Shown piece after piece: positions 1 to 50,669 of a stretch of 50,894 nucleotides of DNA. Position numbers and translations under genes: made by a program. The stretch comes from an uncultured Alphaproteobacteria bacterium. Its GTDB lineage: Bacteria; Pseudomonadota; Alphaproteobacteria; CAAHEQ01; UBA3637. The stretch spans positions 1 through 50,894 of the forward strand of contig CANQUX010000011.1 of assembly GCA_947627155.1 (NCBI GenBank), in the 5' to 3' direction. Positions within the stretch are counted from its first letter, which is position 1. Each line of letters begins with the position of its first letter. The notes below the pieces were generated by a model that made no database searches, had not been told where the DNA came from, and worked only from the letters and a program-made list of their open reading frames with translations.

Positions 1-1488
1 GAAAATCAAACTCAACAAGGCCGCAGTATGGTTGAAATGCTAGGCGTATTGGCCGTTATCGGGGTTATTTCACTCGGCGGTATAGCCGGTTACAGAATGG
101 CAATGAATCGATATCAGGCGAATCAAATAGCAAATGAAATCAATCTCATGCGCACCGATGCAAAAATGAAAGTGGCGCGTGGCGTGGAATTATTGCTCGG
201 TGAGCCGTATGATGGTGAGGACGGGCATTTAAATTTTAATGCGAATTATGGCGTTGAGATAGCTTATCCGGTTATAATATCGGATGAAGAAGGGGAAGAA
301 GGCGGAGAAAAAGGCTATTCATTTACGTTATCGGGTATACCGGCCGGAGTTTGCCAGCCGTTAGCCACGTTATTAGACGGCATGGATGACACGGCCGTAT
401 TAGAAATTAACGGTAAAGATTATGAGACGGCAGAAACCCTTTGTGATAATGAAGAAAATGAAGTACTGGTAGCCTTTTCAACCAAAGATTTAGGTGGTAT
501 AAAAGTATGCAATCCCGAAAAGTGTCCGGGAGAATGTACCGAAAATGGCGAGTGCGAATGTCCAGAAGGAAGTCATTTAAGTGGCGATGAATGTGTAACT
601 TGTTCGGATGAGGCGCCGTGGAATGGCAGTGAATGTGCTTGTCCGGAAGCAAATGAATATTGGAACGGGAATGTATGTGTGGGTTGCAAAGGCGGTACAT
701 GGGATAATGATACAAAAACATGCACCTGTACCAGCGAAGAGCAGACATGGAATATGGCTACCGGTGAATGTGTTTGTTCGTCGGAAAAACAACATTGGGA
801 TGATTCCAGTTCCAGTTGCGTAGCATGTGAAAACAATAAAGTGTGGAATAATGGCCGATGTGAGGAACCGGAATCATACTGTCGCACGAATGCAGATTGT
901 AATAAAAATGGCAAAAGTGGTTATTATTGCTTCACGAATAAAGGTAAAAGTTCGGGTGTTGAGTTTGATGATGATAGTAACAGCGAGTATAATTCAGGAA
1001 CATGCAAACTGGTAATTCCCAGTTTAACGAAAAAAGCAAAAATTGGCGGCACAACATATTATGGCACAACGAGTAGAATGACGTGGTGGAGTGCGTGTCG
1101 GTTCTGTGCGGCAAGAGTCGGAGGTGATGAGTCCGGATGTGCGTCAGGGACATCAGGAACAACGGCAGAGCCAAACTTTATGGCGGGATATGAAATGTTG
1201 CAATGTGCAGACACGATAGATGTGGATAATAGTAAGATGGGTTATTGTCATGAAACGGAAGCGAGAAATACGGAACTAGACGAGAATAATGTATCAGATA
1301 GAGTAAAGGATTTAAGGGAAATGTATGGTTGTGATAGAGAGGAAACAAGTAGCACAACTTGTCATCAAAATCTATGGTTGAGAGATACTTTTTATTCTTC
1401 CCTCTACGCGTATAACATTCATCTCGGCTTGGATTACGTCGGCCGCGACAATCGCAACCACAGCTACTACTACGCCTTATGTGAGTGA
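1..1488 (+). CDS. Prepilin-like cysteine-rich surface protein with lectin-like, DGR-type C-terminus (5' truncated)
   Basis: The reading frame is open from base 1; the first ATG at 28 is internal. Codons 1-27 encode the lead-in to a prepilin cleavage motif, GRSMVEMLG, with Glu at +5, followed by a hydrophobic helix as in type IV pilins and pseudopilins. The two paralogues at 25525-27399 and 49218-50669 suggest that only about 10 to 15 residues are missing. Next come a pilin-like segment, a Cys-rich region of CxC and WNxxxC modules (about 517-870), a CxxxxDCN...GYYC module, and a lectin/DUF1566-like region beginning at MTWW (1078-1089). In the last 29 codons before the terminal Leu-Cys-Glu (1390-1476), 27 end in C or T and the residues are Y, D, N, H, S and G rich. 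This is the pattern expected of a DGR variable repeat. The role is probably surface display and binding, which is inference. Confidence 0.8.
   Translation, partial: ENQTQQGRSMVEMLGVLAVIGVISLGGIAGYRMAMNRYQANQIANEINLMRTDAKMKVARGVELLLGEPYDGEDGHLNFNANYGVEIAYPVIISDEEGEEGGEKGYSFTLSGIPAGVCQPLATLLDGMDDTAVLEINGKDYETAETLCDNEENEVLVAFSTKDLGGIKVCNPEKCPGECTENGECECPEGSHLSGDECVTCSDEAPWNGSECACPEANEYWNGNVCVGCKGGTWDNDTKTCTCTSEEQTWNMATGECVCSSEKQHWDDSSSSCVACENNKVWNNGRCEEPESYCRTNADCNKNGKSGYYCFTNKGKSSGVEFDDDSNSEYNSGTCKLVIPSLTKKAKIGGTTYYGTTSRMTWWSACRFCAARVGGDESGCASGTSGTTAEPNFMAGYEMLQCADTIDVDNSKMGYCHETEARNTELDENNVSDRVKDLREMYGCDREETSSTTCHQNLWLRDTFYSSLYAYNIHLGLDYVGRDNRNHSYYYALCE
1390..1488 (+). other. Candidate DGR variable region at the 3' end of the prepilin-like gene
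   Basis: Twenty-seven of 29 codons are NNY and 19 end in C, whereas the preceding sequence prefers A or T in third position. The encoded tail fits the A-Y-x-I-x-L...R...ALC layout also seen at the end of the gene at 49218-50669. In DGR targets, AAY codons of the template become NNY in the variable copy. No template repeat or reverse transcriptase is visible in this window, so this is an inference from codon pattern and position. Confidence 0.45.
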
Positions 1489-1520
1489 GGCCAGCCCGCC
1501 TGCCGTCTCTTTTCCCTTAT

Positions 1521-1552
1521 GCCCCGCCTTTACGGCTTCCATTCAGCGGGGC
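1521..1552. repeat. GC hairpin just 3' of the candidate variable region
   Basis: A 7-bp perfect stem (GCCCCGC / GCGGGGC) with an 18-nt loop lies 33 bp after the stop codon. There is no T-run, so it does not look like a terminator. Known DGR targets carry a hairpin or cruciform shortly after the variable repeat, and the placement matches that. Confidence 0.6.
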
Positions 1553-1595
1553 ACCTCTCCTCTTTTTCTGGCAGAAAATGTGCAATGCCGTACTC

Positions 1596-2116: not shown

Positions 2117-2192
2117 TGGCGACCCCAGCGAGAGTCGAACTCGCGTTACCGCCGTGAAAGGGCGATGTCCTGGGCCACTAGACGATGGGGTC
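2117..2192 (-). tRNA. tRNA-Glu (anticodon TTC)
   Basis: Read on the minus strand, a full cloverleaf is present: acceptor GACCCC / GGGGTC, D arm CGTCTAGTGGCCCAGGACA, anticodon loop CTTTCAC with TTC, T loop GTTCGACTC, and an encoded CCA. The variable and anticodon arms closely match bacterial tRNA-Glu. Confidence 0.97.
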
Positions 2193-2285: not shown

Positions 2286-4373
2286 TTACTCTTTTATGCT
2301 CATCTTTTGTTCATTTTCGCGCTCTTTTTCCTGAATAAGAAACAAAAGCGACAATTCCGAAATAATTTCCGGATGATATAAGCAATATTTTTCTTCATCG
2401 GCAGATAATGTCGGCATTGCTCCTTGCGCAAAAGCTTGTATTTTTTGCTCGGCACCGCGAATGGTTTTTAACTCAAAATCAGGCACGGGACCGTTCACCG
2501 AAAGCAAATAAACATGCATGGCCTGATAAATCGGCTGATGAATAAGCAAGGCAAGGCCTGTTTCCTTCGGCGACGCCTTTTCCAGCTCCGTCAGCGCTTG
2601 CTTGGCCATTTTTAAAATAACAGGCGGATTATATTCCTCGGGCGTGATAAACAAATGATGCTTTTTTGCCCACAAACCCACGCTTTCCCGCGAGGAATAA
2701 ACCGACAGCGGAATGGACAAAATTAAACCGACGGTAATGGGCAAAATCCAGTAAAAAAGCGACGGGATATACACATAAACAAGTGCCGTTACGGCCACTC
2801 CCAACACCGTATGCCAAAAATGACGCCGAAAGGCAAGCTGCCACGGCGTTCCCGCCTCATCCCGATTTTGCGCTTTCCAACCGGCATCGTTTCCGACCAG
2901 AATATCAAACACGATTTTTGTTTGAAACAACATCATAATCGGTGCCGTTAAAGCGCTGAAAACAAACTCGACAATTAACGTGAACAACAAACCGAAAAAG
3001 CCGCCGAATTCCTTTAACGGCCGATGCTGCACAAAAGCAATCAATCCGCCCAAAATTTTCGGAATAAACAACATTCCCATGGACAAAACAAACAGCGCTA
3101 ATGTGCCGATAAAATCAAAAACCGGCCACGTGGGAAACAATGTTTTGGTATCGGCAAAATATTCCGGCGGAAAAAATTCACGCCATAAAGCAAACGTTAA
3201 TCCGCCCAATAAAAACAAAAACCACAACGGTGATGACAAATAAGACATAATGCCCAACAAAAAATGCAATCGCGAAACGGGGTGCAATTTTTGCGAAAAC
3301 AAAATGCGCAAATGCTGTAAATTTCCCTGACACCACCGTCTGTCACGAATGGCAAAATCAAGCATAGAGGGCGGACACTCCTCATAACTGCCTTTCAGTT
3401 CGGGCAACATCCACGCGAGCCAACCGGCGCGCCGAATCAAAGCCGCTTCCACAAAATCATGGCTTAAAATATGCCCGCCGAACGGCGCCTGCCCGGGAAA
3501 AACGGGCAATCCGCAACATTCCGTAAAAGCATGTGTTCGAATAATGGCATTATGTCCCCAATAGTTGCTGTCCCACACCTGCCAATAAGCCAACCCGGCA
3601 CTGACAATCGGCCCGTATACACGACCGGCAAACTGTTGCACCCGCGCAAAAAACGAGTGACGGTTAATAATAATCGGCGGGGCTTGAATAATACCCGTTG
3701 TTTCGTTGGCTTCCATTAACTGTGCCATGGTCACAACGGTTTCGGCTGCCATTAAACTATCGGCATCTAACACAATCATGTGATCATAATTAGCACCCCA
3801 ACGCACACAAAAATCTTCAATATTGCCGCTTTTGCGTGCCGTATTTTTCGGACGATGCCGATAATAAAGCCGCATATTGTCGGGGAATATCGTTTGTGTT
3901 TGCATCCAAAGCGCTTCTTCTTGAACCCACACGCGCGGATTGGTCGTGTCACTCAACACAAAAAAGTCAAACGCTTCCTCCTGCCCCGTTTTGGCCAAAT
4001 CACGCGCCATGGCCAACAAATTGGCAAAAACGCTTGTCGGATCTTCATTATAAACCGGCATTAAAACAGCCGTTTTGGTTGAAAGTTTCGTTTCAAACGG
4101 CACCCGTTTAATGGCCGGCATTTTCCGATGACGAATCAGCTCCCAAAAACCGAACAAACTTGACCAGAAATAAAGAGAAATCCACGCAAAAGTAATACAA
4201 AACAGAAAAATCATACCATAGCGGGCGGCAAGTGACATATCCGTCGGCATAAAATCGGCCCATTTCACGGTTGCCAAAACCACACTCACCAAAACAAGTC
4301 CGAACAGTTTTATACGCCGCCAAATGATTTGTCGTTTATTGAGTTGCGATATAACAATATAATTTTCTGCCAT
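2286..4373 (-). CDS. opgH: Glucans biosynthesis glucosyltransferase H
   Basis: This inner-membrane family 2 glycosyltransferase polymerises beta-glucan from UDP-glucose for osmoregulated periplasmic glucans. At 695 aa it has two N-terminal membrane helices, then a cytosolic catalytic domain with LMPVYNED (about 104-111), SGNIEDFC, the DADS metal motif (203-206), SHDF (304-307) and RDRRW (343-347). Further membrane segments follow. Enterobacterial OpgH has about 850 aa; this one lacks most of the N-terminal cytosolic extension. It starts 1 bp after the small upstream gene, which itself follows opgG, so the three probably form one transcript. Family assignment is very secure. Confidence 0.96.
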   Translation of the reverse strand: MAENYIVISQLNKRQIIWRRIKLFGLVLVSVVLATVKWADFMPTDMSLAARYGMIFLFCITFAWISLYFWSSLFGFWELIRHRKMPAIKRVPFETKLSTKTAVLMPVYNEDPTSVFANLLAMARDLAKTGQEEAFDFFVLSDTTNPRVWVQEEALWMQTQTIFPDNMRLYYRHRPKNTARKSGNIEDFCVRWGANYDHMIVLDADSLMAAETVVTMAQLMEANETTGIIQAPPIIINRHSFFARVQQFAGRVYGPIVSAGLAYWQVWDSNYWGHNAIIRTHAFTECCGLPVFPGQAPFGGHILSHDFVEAALIRRAGWLAWMLPELKGSYEECPPSMLDFAIRDRRWCQGNLQHLRILFSQKLHPVSRLHFLLGIMSYLSSPLWFLFLLGGLTFALWREFFPPEYFADTKTLFPTWPVFDFIGTLALFVLSMGMLFIPKILGGLIAFVQHRPLKEFGGFFGLLFTLIVEFVFSALTAPIMMLFQTKIVFDILVGNDAGWKAQNRDEAGTPWQLAFRRHFWHTVLGVAVTALVYVYIPSLFYWILPITVGLILSIPLSVYSSRESVGLWAKKHHLFITPEEYNPPVILKMAKQALTELEKASPKETGLALLIHQPIYQAMHVYLLSVNGPVPDFELKTIRGAEQKIQAFAQGAMPTLSADEEKYCLYHPEIISELSLLFLIQEKERENEQKMSIKE

Positions 4374-25524: not shown

Positions 25525-27399
25525 TTAAAAACCATCAATTGCTTTTTCTTTATCGCAATTATCGCCGGTGAAACCGCTATAACATTCACAATATCCCCCG
25601 CCATTAGCAGTGTTGTGCCACGCACCATGATTGCTGCAATAACCTTCTTCGGAACAATCTGCACCGCCCCACCCGGAATTGCACCGTGTGCATATTCCCA
25701 TATCGGCATCATAACCGCTTCCATGTCCGCTGCATTTATCACAATCATCACCGCTCCAACCGGAATAGCATTCTGTGCATTTTCCCGTATTGGCATCATA
25801 ACCGCTTCCATATCCGCTGCACTTGTCACACTTCTCGCCGTACCAACCGTAATTGCAGTAACAGCGACCAGCAGTATTGTCCCAGTAACCATTCTTGTTG
25901 CAATAACCTTCTTCGGAACAATCATCACCGCCCCACCCGGAATAGCATCCTCCGCATTTTCCCGTACTGGAATTATAACTGGATCCATGTCCGTTACACT
26001 TATCACACTTCTCGCCGCTCCAACCGTAATTGCAGGAACAGTAACCTCCAGTAGCAGTATTGCTCCAGTAACCATGATTGCTGCAATAATCACCTTCTTC
26101 GGAACAATCTGTACCGCCCCAACCGGAATTGCATTTTGTGCATATTCCCGTACTGGAATTATAACCGCTTCCATGTCCGCTGCACTTGTCACACTTCTCG
26201 CCGTACCAACCGTTGCTGCAGGAACAGTAACCTCCTCCGTCAGCTTTATTGTACCAGGTACCATGTCCGCAATTAACTTTTTCGGAACAATCAGCACCGC
26301 TCCAACCGTTGCTGCAGGAACAGTAACCTCCTCCGTCAGCAGTATTGTGCCAATAACCATGATTGCTGCAAGCACCTTCTTCGGAACAATCTTTACCACC
26401 CCAACCGGAATTGCAGTAACAGTAACCTCCGTCAGCTTTATTGTACCAGGTACCATGCTTGCTGCAAGCACCTTCTTCGGAACAATCTGCACCGCCCCAA
26501 CCGAACTGGCACTGTGAACATCCTGTATCGGAAAGCCAAGGTTCGTAAGTATGGGCTCCATGTCCGCTGCACTTGTCACATCTCTCACCGTCCCAACCGC
26601 GTTCGCAGTAACAGCCAACGGCATAGGAATCACCATTGTGCCATGTACCATGATTGTTGCAAGCATTTTGTTCGGAACAATCTTTACCGCCCCAACCTTG
26701 CTCACAAACACAAAATGGTTTACTCTCTGAATAATACTGTAATGAGCCATGCTTACAATTAATTCCAATATTATCATCTTCGGTTGTTGTGGTTGCAAGA
26801 GTTGTTACAGTCGTTGTTGATGTAACCGCCTCCGTCACCTCAGGCGTGTAAACATGCTCCGGCGTTTCCGATTCCTCCGGTCGCGGTTCATAGTTCGTTA
26901 CACTCGAATCTACATTAAAATATACCGTTACAAAACCCTCTGTTTCATCTGTTTCCACTTTTGTGGCATATTGCAAACTTTCTGCCGACTCCGCCACCAT
27001 TTTTTGCACCCGTTCCGGTAAATCAAGCGCCGTTATAAAATATCGCGTTTCGTTTATATTCTCACATGCCGGATTCACAATTTCGGCATTTTCTCCGCAC
27101 CCGTATTGAAAGCCGTAATTCATTGTGCGAAACGTGGGATTTTCATCATCGTAAGGCGAGCCCAGAGAAAGCGTAACCCCGTTAGCATTTCCCTTTTGCA
27201 ACAGCATAGCCAATTGCAAGCTGTTTAAATTGATTTCATTAAGAACTTGATTCGCAACATGTTTATCCATGCCCCAGCGATAGCCCGATATGCCGCCGAT
27301 TGAGATAACGCCGATAACAGCCAGAACGCCCAGCATTTCAATCATACTACGGCCTTGTTGCGCTTGATTTTTAACTTGTTTTAATTGCTTTTTCTTCAT
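25525..27399 (-). CDS. Prepilin-like protein with 13 EGF-like modules
   Basis: This 624-aa protein begins with a charged leader and the prepilin motif QQGRSMIEMLGVLAVIGVIS (Glu at +5 after the Gly), then GGISGYRWGMDKH, as in type IV pilin-like proteins. After a pilin-like domain and a Thr/Glu-rich linker (about 175-210) comes a stretch of about 13 EGF/tenascin-like units with C..HG.W......GYC.C..GW.G.DC motifs, alternating SEEG and DKCSGHG linkers. It lacks the lectin-like tail of its relatives. The repeats are near identical in DNA, so recombination can change their number. Processing by a prepilin peptidase and display on the envelope are inferred from the motif. Confidence 0.88.
   Translation of the reverse strand: MKKKQLKQVKNQAQQGRSMIEMLGVLAVIGVISIGGISGYRWGMDKHVANQVLNEINLNSLQLAMLLQKGNANGVTLSLGSPYDDENPTFRTMNYGFQYGCGENAEIVNPACENINETRYFITALDLPERVQKMVAESAESLQYATKVETDETEGFVTVYFNVDSSVTNYEPRPEESETPEHVYTPEVTEAVTSTTTVTTLATTTTEDDNIGINCKHGSLQYYSESKPFCVCEQGWGGKDCSEQNACNNHGTWHNGDSYAVGCYCERGWDGERCDKCSGHGAHTYEPWLSDTGCSQCQFGWGGADCSEEGACSKHGTWYNKADGGYCYCNSGWGGKDCSEEGACSNHGYWHNTADGGGYCSCSNGWSGADCSEKVNCGHGTWYNKADGGGYCSCSNGWYGEKCDKCSGHGSGYNSSTGICTKCNSGWGGTDCSEEGDYCSNHGYWSNTATGGYCSCNYGWSGEKCDKCNGHGSSYNSSTGKCGGCYSGWGGDDCSEEGYCNKNGYWDNTAGRCYCNYGWYGEKCDKCSGYGSGYDANTGKCTECYSGWSGDDCDKCSGHGSGYDADMGICTRCNSGWGGADCSEEGYCSNHGAWHNTANGGGYCECYSGFTGDNCDKEKAIDGF
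25570..26760. repeat. Tandem EGF-module DNA repeats
   Basis: Units of roughly 80-110 bp recur across the gene with blocks such as tgttccgaagaagg (gene sense) repeated almost unchanged. Because of the period-3 repetition, long spurious open frames occur on both strands here. Confidence 0.85.
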
Positions 27400-49217: not shown

Positions 49218-49340
49218 TTATTGTCGAACACACAGCGCATGACCGTCGGTATTAAAATAATCGTCATGACGCGCATCATCATCTATATAACCTGTCCAAA
49301 GATTTATAAGATAGGCCCTACAAGACGTATATCCGCCATC
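49218..49340 (-). other. Candidate variable region at the 3' end of the third prepilin-like gene
   Basis: The encoded AYLINLWTGYIDDDARHDD stretch, followed by a Y-rich part and HALCVRQ, parallels the tail of the 1-1488 gene. About 26 of 34 codons are NNY. The pattern is weaker than in the first gene and no downstream hairpin like 1521-1552 was seen. Confidence 0.35.
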
Positions 49341-50669
49341 TAACCATACATAAACATTTTCTAGAAATTTCCTATATAACTCTTTTCTGGCTTCGGTTTG
49401 ACACAAATCTTCAGTTTCCAGACCTGCACAATCTAAATCATCCAAAGTTAACTCTTTACTGTTCAATGCCTGCTGACAAAGTCGTTCGGAAGCAGTCCAC
49501 CATGTCATATTGGTTTTGGAAAAATAATATGTATGCCCGTTTACCTCTTTTTCTTCTATATCTTCTTCTACCAAACGACATGTACTGGCATAACCGCTTT
49601 TTCCTTCCCCGAAAGCGTTGGGATTAAACTCTGAATTACAGTTGAATCCCCGTTCCAGATAACAATAATATCCGGTTCTGCCATTGTTACAATCATCATT
49701 GCTTTCACATTCGCCGACACCGCATTTTTGTACTGTTTCTTGCCATTTTTGTCCCTCGGGACACGGTTCGCAAGTGTTTGTATCTGAATTACAAACCGGA
49801 TTATTTGTATCTTTTTCAATGCAATTTTGATCGCTTACGCATTCCACACATTGATTTGTGGTATTGCATTGCGGTTTTTCGGAATTCTTGCAATCGGCAG
49901 ATGTGACACATTCCACGCAGGTATTACCGTTCCATTTAGGCGTTTCCGGCGGACACGATTCACAATTGCCCAGCTCATCATTGCAACGGGGTTTGCTTAA
50001 ATCTTTGCAATCCGTATGATCTATACATTCCACACATTCATTATTTTCTACATCACAAATAGGTCTTGAAGTGTCACAATCTTCATCTTTTGCACACCAG
50101 CCTTCCGGACGATTTGAATCATAATTTCCGTTCACTTCTTCCGCATCAAACTGAATGTAAAATTCATTGGCTTCATCACATAAATCATCTCCTTTATAAA
50201 CTTTTTTATTGATTTCTATATACATTAAACCGTCCATGGCATTAACAAGTGTTGTAAGCGGTTTACAAACCCCTTTCGAAACATTTCCCACTTTAATATA
50301 ATAAGCATCCGCTTAGCGGCAGTTATAAAATTCTGCTTTGTCTTTGCGAATACAATCATAATCAACGGGATAACGATCATATTGTGTTGATAAATGCCCG
50401 CGATAACGTTCATCATCAGGCGTTTCATCATAAGGATCCCCCAATAACAATTCTTCGTTTCCCAAAGCATATTTAACCTTTAAATCGTTACGCATTAAGT
50501 TAATTTCATTAGCTATTTGATCGGCTTGATAATAGTTCATGGCTAATTTATAGCCCACGATTCCACCGATTGATAAAATGGCAATAATAGCCAACACCCC
50601 GAGCATTTCAACCATACTCCGGCCGCTTTGCGATTGATTTTCAAATTGTTTTTTTGATTGCATGGTCAT
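49218..50669 (-). pseudogene. Prepilin-like Cys-rich lectin-tailed protein interrupted by one in-frame TAA
   Basis: The two open parts, 50669-50313 and 50312-49218, are in the same frame and are separated only by a TAA at 50313-50315. The first part has the prepilin motif SGRSMVEMLGVLAIIAILS and a pilin-like segment. The second continues as ADAYYIKVGNVSKGVCKPL, aligning with the gene at 1-1488, then Cys-rich CxxxxDC modules, CESNDDCN...GYYC, MTWW (near 49500-49510), and a tail ending HALCVRQ. The tail has the DGR-variable or DUF1566-like look (YIDDDARHDDYF). The domains past the stop are intact, so this is a recent nonsense change, a sequencing error or a read-through codon. Confidence 0.8.

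Follow-up and report, generated by a model that had tools for sequence, protein, structure and literature searches.

Variable tails on dispersed prepilin-lectin genes of an uncultured gut alphaproteobacterium point to a diversity-generating retroelement

The first gene of the DNA analysed here encodes a prepilin-anchored, lectin-type protein, and its 3' end, at positions 1399-1495, is with high probability (about 0.93) the variable repeat (VR) of a diversity-generating retroelement (DGR). The analysed stretch, called the window below, corresponds to the entire contig C11 (50,894 bases) from a genome assembly (G000) of 1.56 Mb in 32 contigs that is 95.8% complete; the relatives of this genome are mostly alphaproteobacterial MAGs from herbivore guts. 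The tail is a member of a dispersed family that varies where the template repeat (TR) of congeners has adenine, and the reverse transcriptase (RT) that would be required is found in those congeners.

Organization of the prepilin-lectin gene

The features of the window that bear on this assignment are the following.

1-1488, forward strand: target gene, with a prepilin N-terminus, Cys-rich EGF-like repeats and a C-terminal lectin-type domain that ends in the VR
985-1485, forward strand: C-terminal domain of the C-type-lectin-like (CTLD) type with the motif MTWWSAC, a homologue of the DGR lectins that congeners secrete (alignment, AlphaFold models, fold searches)
1399-1495, forward strand: VR, aligned with 25 other tails of G000 and with congener TRs
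1474-1495, forward strand: conserved 3' block GCCTTATGTGAGTGAGGCCAGC, which spans the stop codon; candidate initiation-of-mutagenic-homing (IMH) region
1520-1553, forward strand: GC hairpin TGCCCCGC-18 nt-GCGGGGCA, with an 8-bp stem and an 18-nt loop; candidate target-recognition hairpin or cruciform
49221-50312, reverse strand: prepilin-lectin paralog with a tail that can be aligned with the VR, lacks the NNC pattern and is not, or no longer, of DGR type

The target gene is open at its 5' end, the contig start falling inside it, and terminates with a stop codon at 1486-1488. Its prepilin N-terminus was recognised as a motif in the sequence, G|RSMVEMLGVLAVIGV with Glu5 (as read, G|RSMVEMLGVLAVIGVISLGG), and the class III signal G|RSMVE-MLGVLAVIGVISLGG is followed by a hydrophobic helix, as in type IV pilin-like proteins. 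T2SSE-family ATPases, the assembly ATPases expected for such proteins, are encoded in the genome, and the Pfam N_methyl match to the gene is weak (E 0.54, under the family cut-off). The prepilin anchor proposed in the first-pass annotation is therefore real, given this signal and these ATPases.

The same annotation had noticed an abrupt switch to NNY codons at the gene end, which is borne out: 28 of the 30 codons at 1384-1473 are NNY, the exceptions being GCG and TTG, compared with 48% in the preceding 461 codons (binomial P about 1e-7); elsewhere in the gene, any run of 30 codons contains at most 23. The VR reads TCC CTC TAC GCG TAT AAC ATT CAT CTC ... TAC TAC TAC GCC TTA TGT GAG TGA GGCCAGC, its limits (about 1399-1495) being taken from the alignment of 26 paralogous tails. 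The 3' block at 1474-1495 is near-identical in most of these tails, and two different classes of downstream sequence start after it; judging from the point at which TR/VR homology stops in relatives, this block would correspond to the IMH region.

The downstream GC hairpin was also reported at first pass and lies at 1520-1553, 31 nt past the stop codon. Folded as DNA it reaches -9.6 kcal/mol (z = -3.1), a stability equalled by one in 200 shuffled sequences, and the same or nearly the same hairpin is present 22-40 nt past the stop in 22 of the 26 tails, with four tails lacking it. DGR targets are marked by a GC-rich hairpin or cruciform shortly after the VR: target recognition in the Bordetella phage BPP-1 depends on a hairpin with an 8-bp stem, and the hairpins of phage DGRs have 7-10 bp GC stems, 4-34 bp past the VR, with a 4-nt GRNA loop (PMC3240598). 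The hairpin of the window may conceivably act as a transcription terminator.

Farther downstream, a series of long imperfect palindromes occupies 1580-1990 of the window (e.g. TTTCCCTCTATCGGC...GCCGATAGAGGGAAA with an inner hairpin; arms at 1821-1851/1861-1891 and 1710-1722/1761-1773). Similar palindromes follow many other tails and appear, from their sequences, to form a dispersed intergenic family; a strict conserved-palindrome pattern searched after the tails proved too strict and gave no match. A tRNA-Glu gene (TTC; 2117-2192, reverse strand) lies between the palindrome array and a gene at 2286-4373 (reverse strand).

The lectin domain received no usable name from Pfam or NCBIfam. It shares 15 invariant alignment columns with the secreted targets of relatives, and its fold was approached through one of these, a homologous target of 125 aa from another family member (L093), for which the AlphaFold model has a pLDDT of 79. 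Foldseek matched this model to the C-terminal domain of Bd2740 (E 2e-4), to the C-terminal domain of Legionella Lcl (2e-3) and then to CTLDs, and VIA-align superposed it on CTLDs with Z 10-11 over about 90 residues. The model of the window domain itself is weak (pLDDT 56); its VIA-align matches are also CTLDs, with Z up to 7.6, and Foldseek returned for this model only matches with E above 1. Structure prediction and fold searches thus support the lectin fold suspected at first pass, and the variable domain is predicted to be of the C-type-lectin fold with the VR at the 3' end of the target, as in other DGRs.

A family of variable tails

A DNA search of G000 with the tail hit 41 places, and a protein search gave 127 matches, of which about 70 are prepilin-type paralogs. 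These paralogs (e.g. window 27100-27369 and 49221-50312, both on the reverse strand), numerous for a 1.56-Mb genome, are mosaic in structure and mostly devoid of a VR tail. Reading the tails codon by codon yielded 26 distinct VR-like tails scattered over the genome; since one of them is eroded (C10:25635) and a further, longer-ended tail lies at about C4:7750, the number of clear VRs is about 26. They share the framework TCC TGC nnC GCG TAC nnC GTY nnC CTY nnY nnY GGT nnC GTC nnC nnC nnC nnT CGC (nnC)4-9, in which the last codons are often TAC, and which ends GCC TTA TGT GAG TGA GGCC.

All 26 translated VRs differ from one another and none contains a stop codon. NNY codons make up 93% of the VRs versus 46% of the 58 codons upstream, and the variation among the tails sits in the first two positions of the NNY codons while the framework bases are fixed: only 28 of 520 non-A framework cells (5.4%) depart from the consensus. 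Such non-A changes number 0-1 in 20 of the 26 tails, which suggests recent rewriting. The VR of the window has three non-A departures from the template, more than most tails, and all of them are in its 5' half, as if this part were older and had not lately been rewritten.

Tails that align with the VR without the NNC pattern are found at C10:25635 (7 non-A changes), at about C13:44450 and at C29:951, and are candidate fossil VRs. At C1:50705-50830 (locus L010) part of a tail end (CACGCTCCCTACGCCTTATGTGAATGA) is repeated after a VR and its hairpin; this duplication may have been left behind by aberrant homing or recombination. Fused tails occur in the sister genome G009 (76% complete) as well. 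The scaffolds form mosaics of modules, both across paralogs and between G000 and G009, and owing to this mosaic structure no clean orthologous VR pairs could be found between the two genomes.

Template adenines predict the variable positions

Adenine is the commonest base at 18 of the 20 variable (nn) columns in the fixed-length part of the VR. Since the TR of G000 is absent from the assembly, the TR of a congener served as an independent map of the template. Where this TR has A, the columns show a mean entropy of 1.41 bits compared with 0.40 elsewhere (Mann-Whitney p = 1.3e-6, 23 tails, one of which, C3:49119, has an extra codon before CGC that puts its last two columns off register and can only weaken the result). 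The variable columns of the G000 tails are predicted by the congener TR; the variation follows template adenines when measured with this independent template.

Three synonymous marker positions are tightly linked, as CTT-nnC-nnT versus CTC-nnT-nnC (Fisher p down to about 1e-5), which indicates contributions from two or more versions of the template, or else from two old lineages of tails. The tails also differ in length, the tract after the fixed CGC being 4 to 9 whole codons long. Insertions of 3n that keep the frame, judged against a known TR, occur in the congeners G001 and G003. In G003 an AACACA unit has been added in one VR (C26) and an AAT unit in another (C31); as we read the alignments, the non-A bases are kept and the A bases independently mutated, the outcome expected of slippage in mutagenic copying. 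Slippage of 3n at AAC repeats has been posited for the indels made by the BPP-1 RT (PMC12875486), and the loop-length differences described here would likewise stem from triplet slippage by the RT.

Retroelement genes in related genomes

An RT gene is present in three of nine congeners and in seven of 43 genomes of the family. Prepilin-Avd-TR-RT loci were found in the congeners G001, G003 and G005 and in two other family members (L092 and L093), with the TR adjoining the RT gene and the Avd gene abutting the prepilin gene; where the contig allows, the cassette also carries a secreted protein of 121-126 aa with a VR. The best solved match of the congener RT is 8ub7 (E 2.6e-25), which we take to be the RT of the BPP-1 DGR, and its LPIGNLTSQ stretch is the DGR version of RT motif 4. 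The congener Avd, an accessory protein that is common in DGRs but not universal, matches NF033474 (E 1.8e-12) and PF22296 (bAvd; E 2.2e-9), both under the curated cut-offs.

The TR-VR pairs of these relatives mismatch at 109 of 281 template adenines (39%) versus 33 of 494 other bases (7%), the latter lying partly at repeat ends. As these cassettes show A-specific TR-to-VR mutation and have target tails homologous to those of G000, they support the DGR reading. In G003 the VR tail recurs at three or more other remote sites, and on our reading two of these encode the same small lectin next to a prepilin gene, so that targets in trans are usual in this group. The lectin of the congeners is secreted as a protein of its own, whereas in G000 and G009 it forms the C-terminus of the prepilin itself.

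The first-pass annotation had proposed looking for an RT and a template repeat elsewhere in the genome. Both exist in congeners; neither is in the 95.8%-complete G000 assembly, in which no RT was detected with PF00078 (RVT_1) or with the congener RT as query, no Avd was found, the A-rich template inferred from the tails matched at no more than 84% and only at gene tails, and the congener TR had no match. RT, Avd and TR are likewise absent from G009. The genes that flank the DGR of G001 are distributed in G000 over C1, C2, C12 and C23, where no empty site or gap was identifiable.

Viral contigs searched with the exact tail pattern gave no match. As a source of the RT they were rejected, the one contig matched being a distant phage whose RT is 37% identical to that of the congeners. 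This contig (L144, IMGVR_UViG_3300043104_000075) has a 135-aa ORF in the Avd position upstream of the RT and a pair of 101-nt inverted repeats, 80% identical, one in the region upstream of the RT and the other at a nearby gene, and looks from these features like a phage DGR.

Proposed mechanism and alternatives

We propose that an error-prone RT and Avd would copy a non-coding TR whose variable codons are AAC or AAT, with random bases placed opposite template adenines, and that the cDNA would replace the 3' ends of target genes, with the constant block at the stop codon and the GC hairpin beyond it as guides. The outcome would be new binding loops on a C-type-lectin-like domain atop a type IV pilin-like stalk, and the proteins may serve as adhesins or recognition tips. 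A TR of the form TCCTGCAACGCGTACAACGTCAACCTTAACAATGGTAACGTCAACAACAACAATCGCAAC(AAC)nTACGCCTTATGTGAGTGAGGCC would be expected in a prepilin-Avd-TR-RT cassette. The RT missing from the assembly would have served all tails in trans, and at least two TR versions would have existed. This RT probably resides in an assembly gap or on an unbinned element; a gap is favoured by the well-kept framework of the tails, by the family matches near contig ends and by the location of Avd beside a prepilin repeat family that breaks assemblies. Tentatively, and at slightly less than even odds, we suppose that a DGR located outside the assembly is still active and acts in trans on some 26 or more lectins anchored to pilins, and varies both their sequence (A to N, from at least two templates) and their loop length (by AAC triplet slippage).

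Alternatively, the tails could be products of a DGR whose RT-TR locus has been lost in this lineage, leaving a frozen repertoire that only drifts or recombines. The absence of RT, Avd and TR from both G000 and G009, the two genomes with clear fused tails, speaks for this account, as do several eroded tails (the three candidate fossils named above and the one at window 49221), and there is a precedent in the Treponema denticola strains that have no RT and retain leftover targets (PMC4891356). However, most tails are near-perfect at non-A sites, as would follow from recent rewriting, and G000 is incomplete, with 12 prepilin-family matches within 300 nt of a contig end; in the cassette-bearing relatives, moreover, Avd directly adjoins a prepilin gene, at a junction prone to assembly breaks. 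We consider the loss of the locus a real but less likely possibility.

An ordinary contingency gene family with no DGR at all, in which diversifying selection acts on tails reshuffled through recombination or gene conversion, would account for the mosaic, modular scaffolds across paralogs and between G000 and G009, and the linked synonymous markers do point to a limited number of tail lineages. Shuffling alone cannot, however, restrict variation to the NN of NNY with A as the commonest base, nor fit the adenine map of an independent TR; furthermore, no two of the 26 VR sequences are alike, and relatives hold DGR machinery for homologous tails. This explanation is very improbable. That the NNY tail is merely an antisense or codon-bias artefact of a composition switch, as the flip in the sign of GC skew at about 1380, the same place, might imply, is refuted by the paralog alignment with its in-frame codon pattern in 26 genes and variation at two of three codon positions, and can practically be discarded. 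The NNY tail as the signature of a DGR target, the central claim of the first-pass annotation, is upheld by A-templated NNY codons across about 26 tails.

Comparison with known systems

DGRs, remote targets, the CLec fold and the hairpin are already known; what is new, relative to the published systems compared here, is that the lectin targets are fused to prepilins, that so many of them are dispersed over a small genome, and that separate and fused lectins occur in one genus. A literature search on DGRs and prepilins turned up only a brief reference to putative pilin structures (PMC6642488). The typical DGR described so far has one or a few targets beside its RT, and a large metagenome survey states that its method misses remote targets (PMC8144416), whereas the roughly 26 remote targets of G000 were found from the targets themselves. 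If the DGR is still active, this repertoire is larger than any single-genome DGR repertoire that we found described, and a gut alphaproteobacterium with a small genome would carry an antibody-like repertoire on the stalks of its pili. The system makes it testable whether a single retroelement can sustain a repertoire of recognition proteins genome-wide.

The system resembles the DGR of the Bordetella phage BPP-1 (mtd, avd, brt) in its RT and Avd relatives (in congeners), its A-to-N mutated 3' VR, its C-terminal C-type-lectin fold and the 8-bp GC hairpin after the VR. It differs in being chromosomal and in having about 26 dispersed targets, a prepilin fusion, a hairpin loop of 18 rather than 4 nt and no RT in the assembly. 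The Treponema denticola DGR is similar in that several remote surface targets are thought to be served from one RT-TR and in that strains with targets and no RT exist, but it has 2-7 targets as opposed to about 26, several of which are lipoproteins and not prepilins (PMC4891356). Thiohalocapsa PB-PSB1 also has many CLec targets per genome, some of them served in trans; its 15 targets, however, are accompanied by nine DGR loci in a 7.95-Mb genome and are mostly sensors of conflict systems, not proteins anchored to pili (PMC10907252). The DGRs of the same family (L086, L087, L092 and L093) have a homologous lectin with the tail S-x-AY-x-V-x-L-xx-G-x-V-xxxx-R...YALC and a prepilin gene beside Avd. 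Their variable lectin stands alone as a small secreted protein, in contrast to the prepilin fusion of G000 and G009, and the separate-lectin and fused-lectin relatives together provide an evolutionary series.
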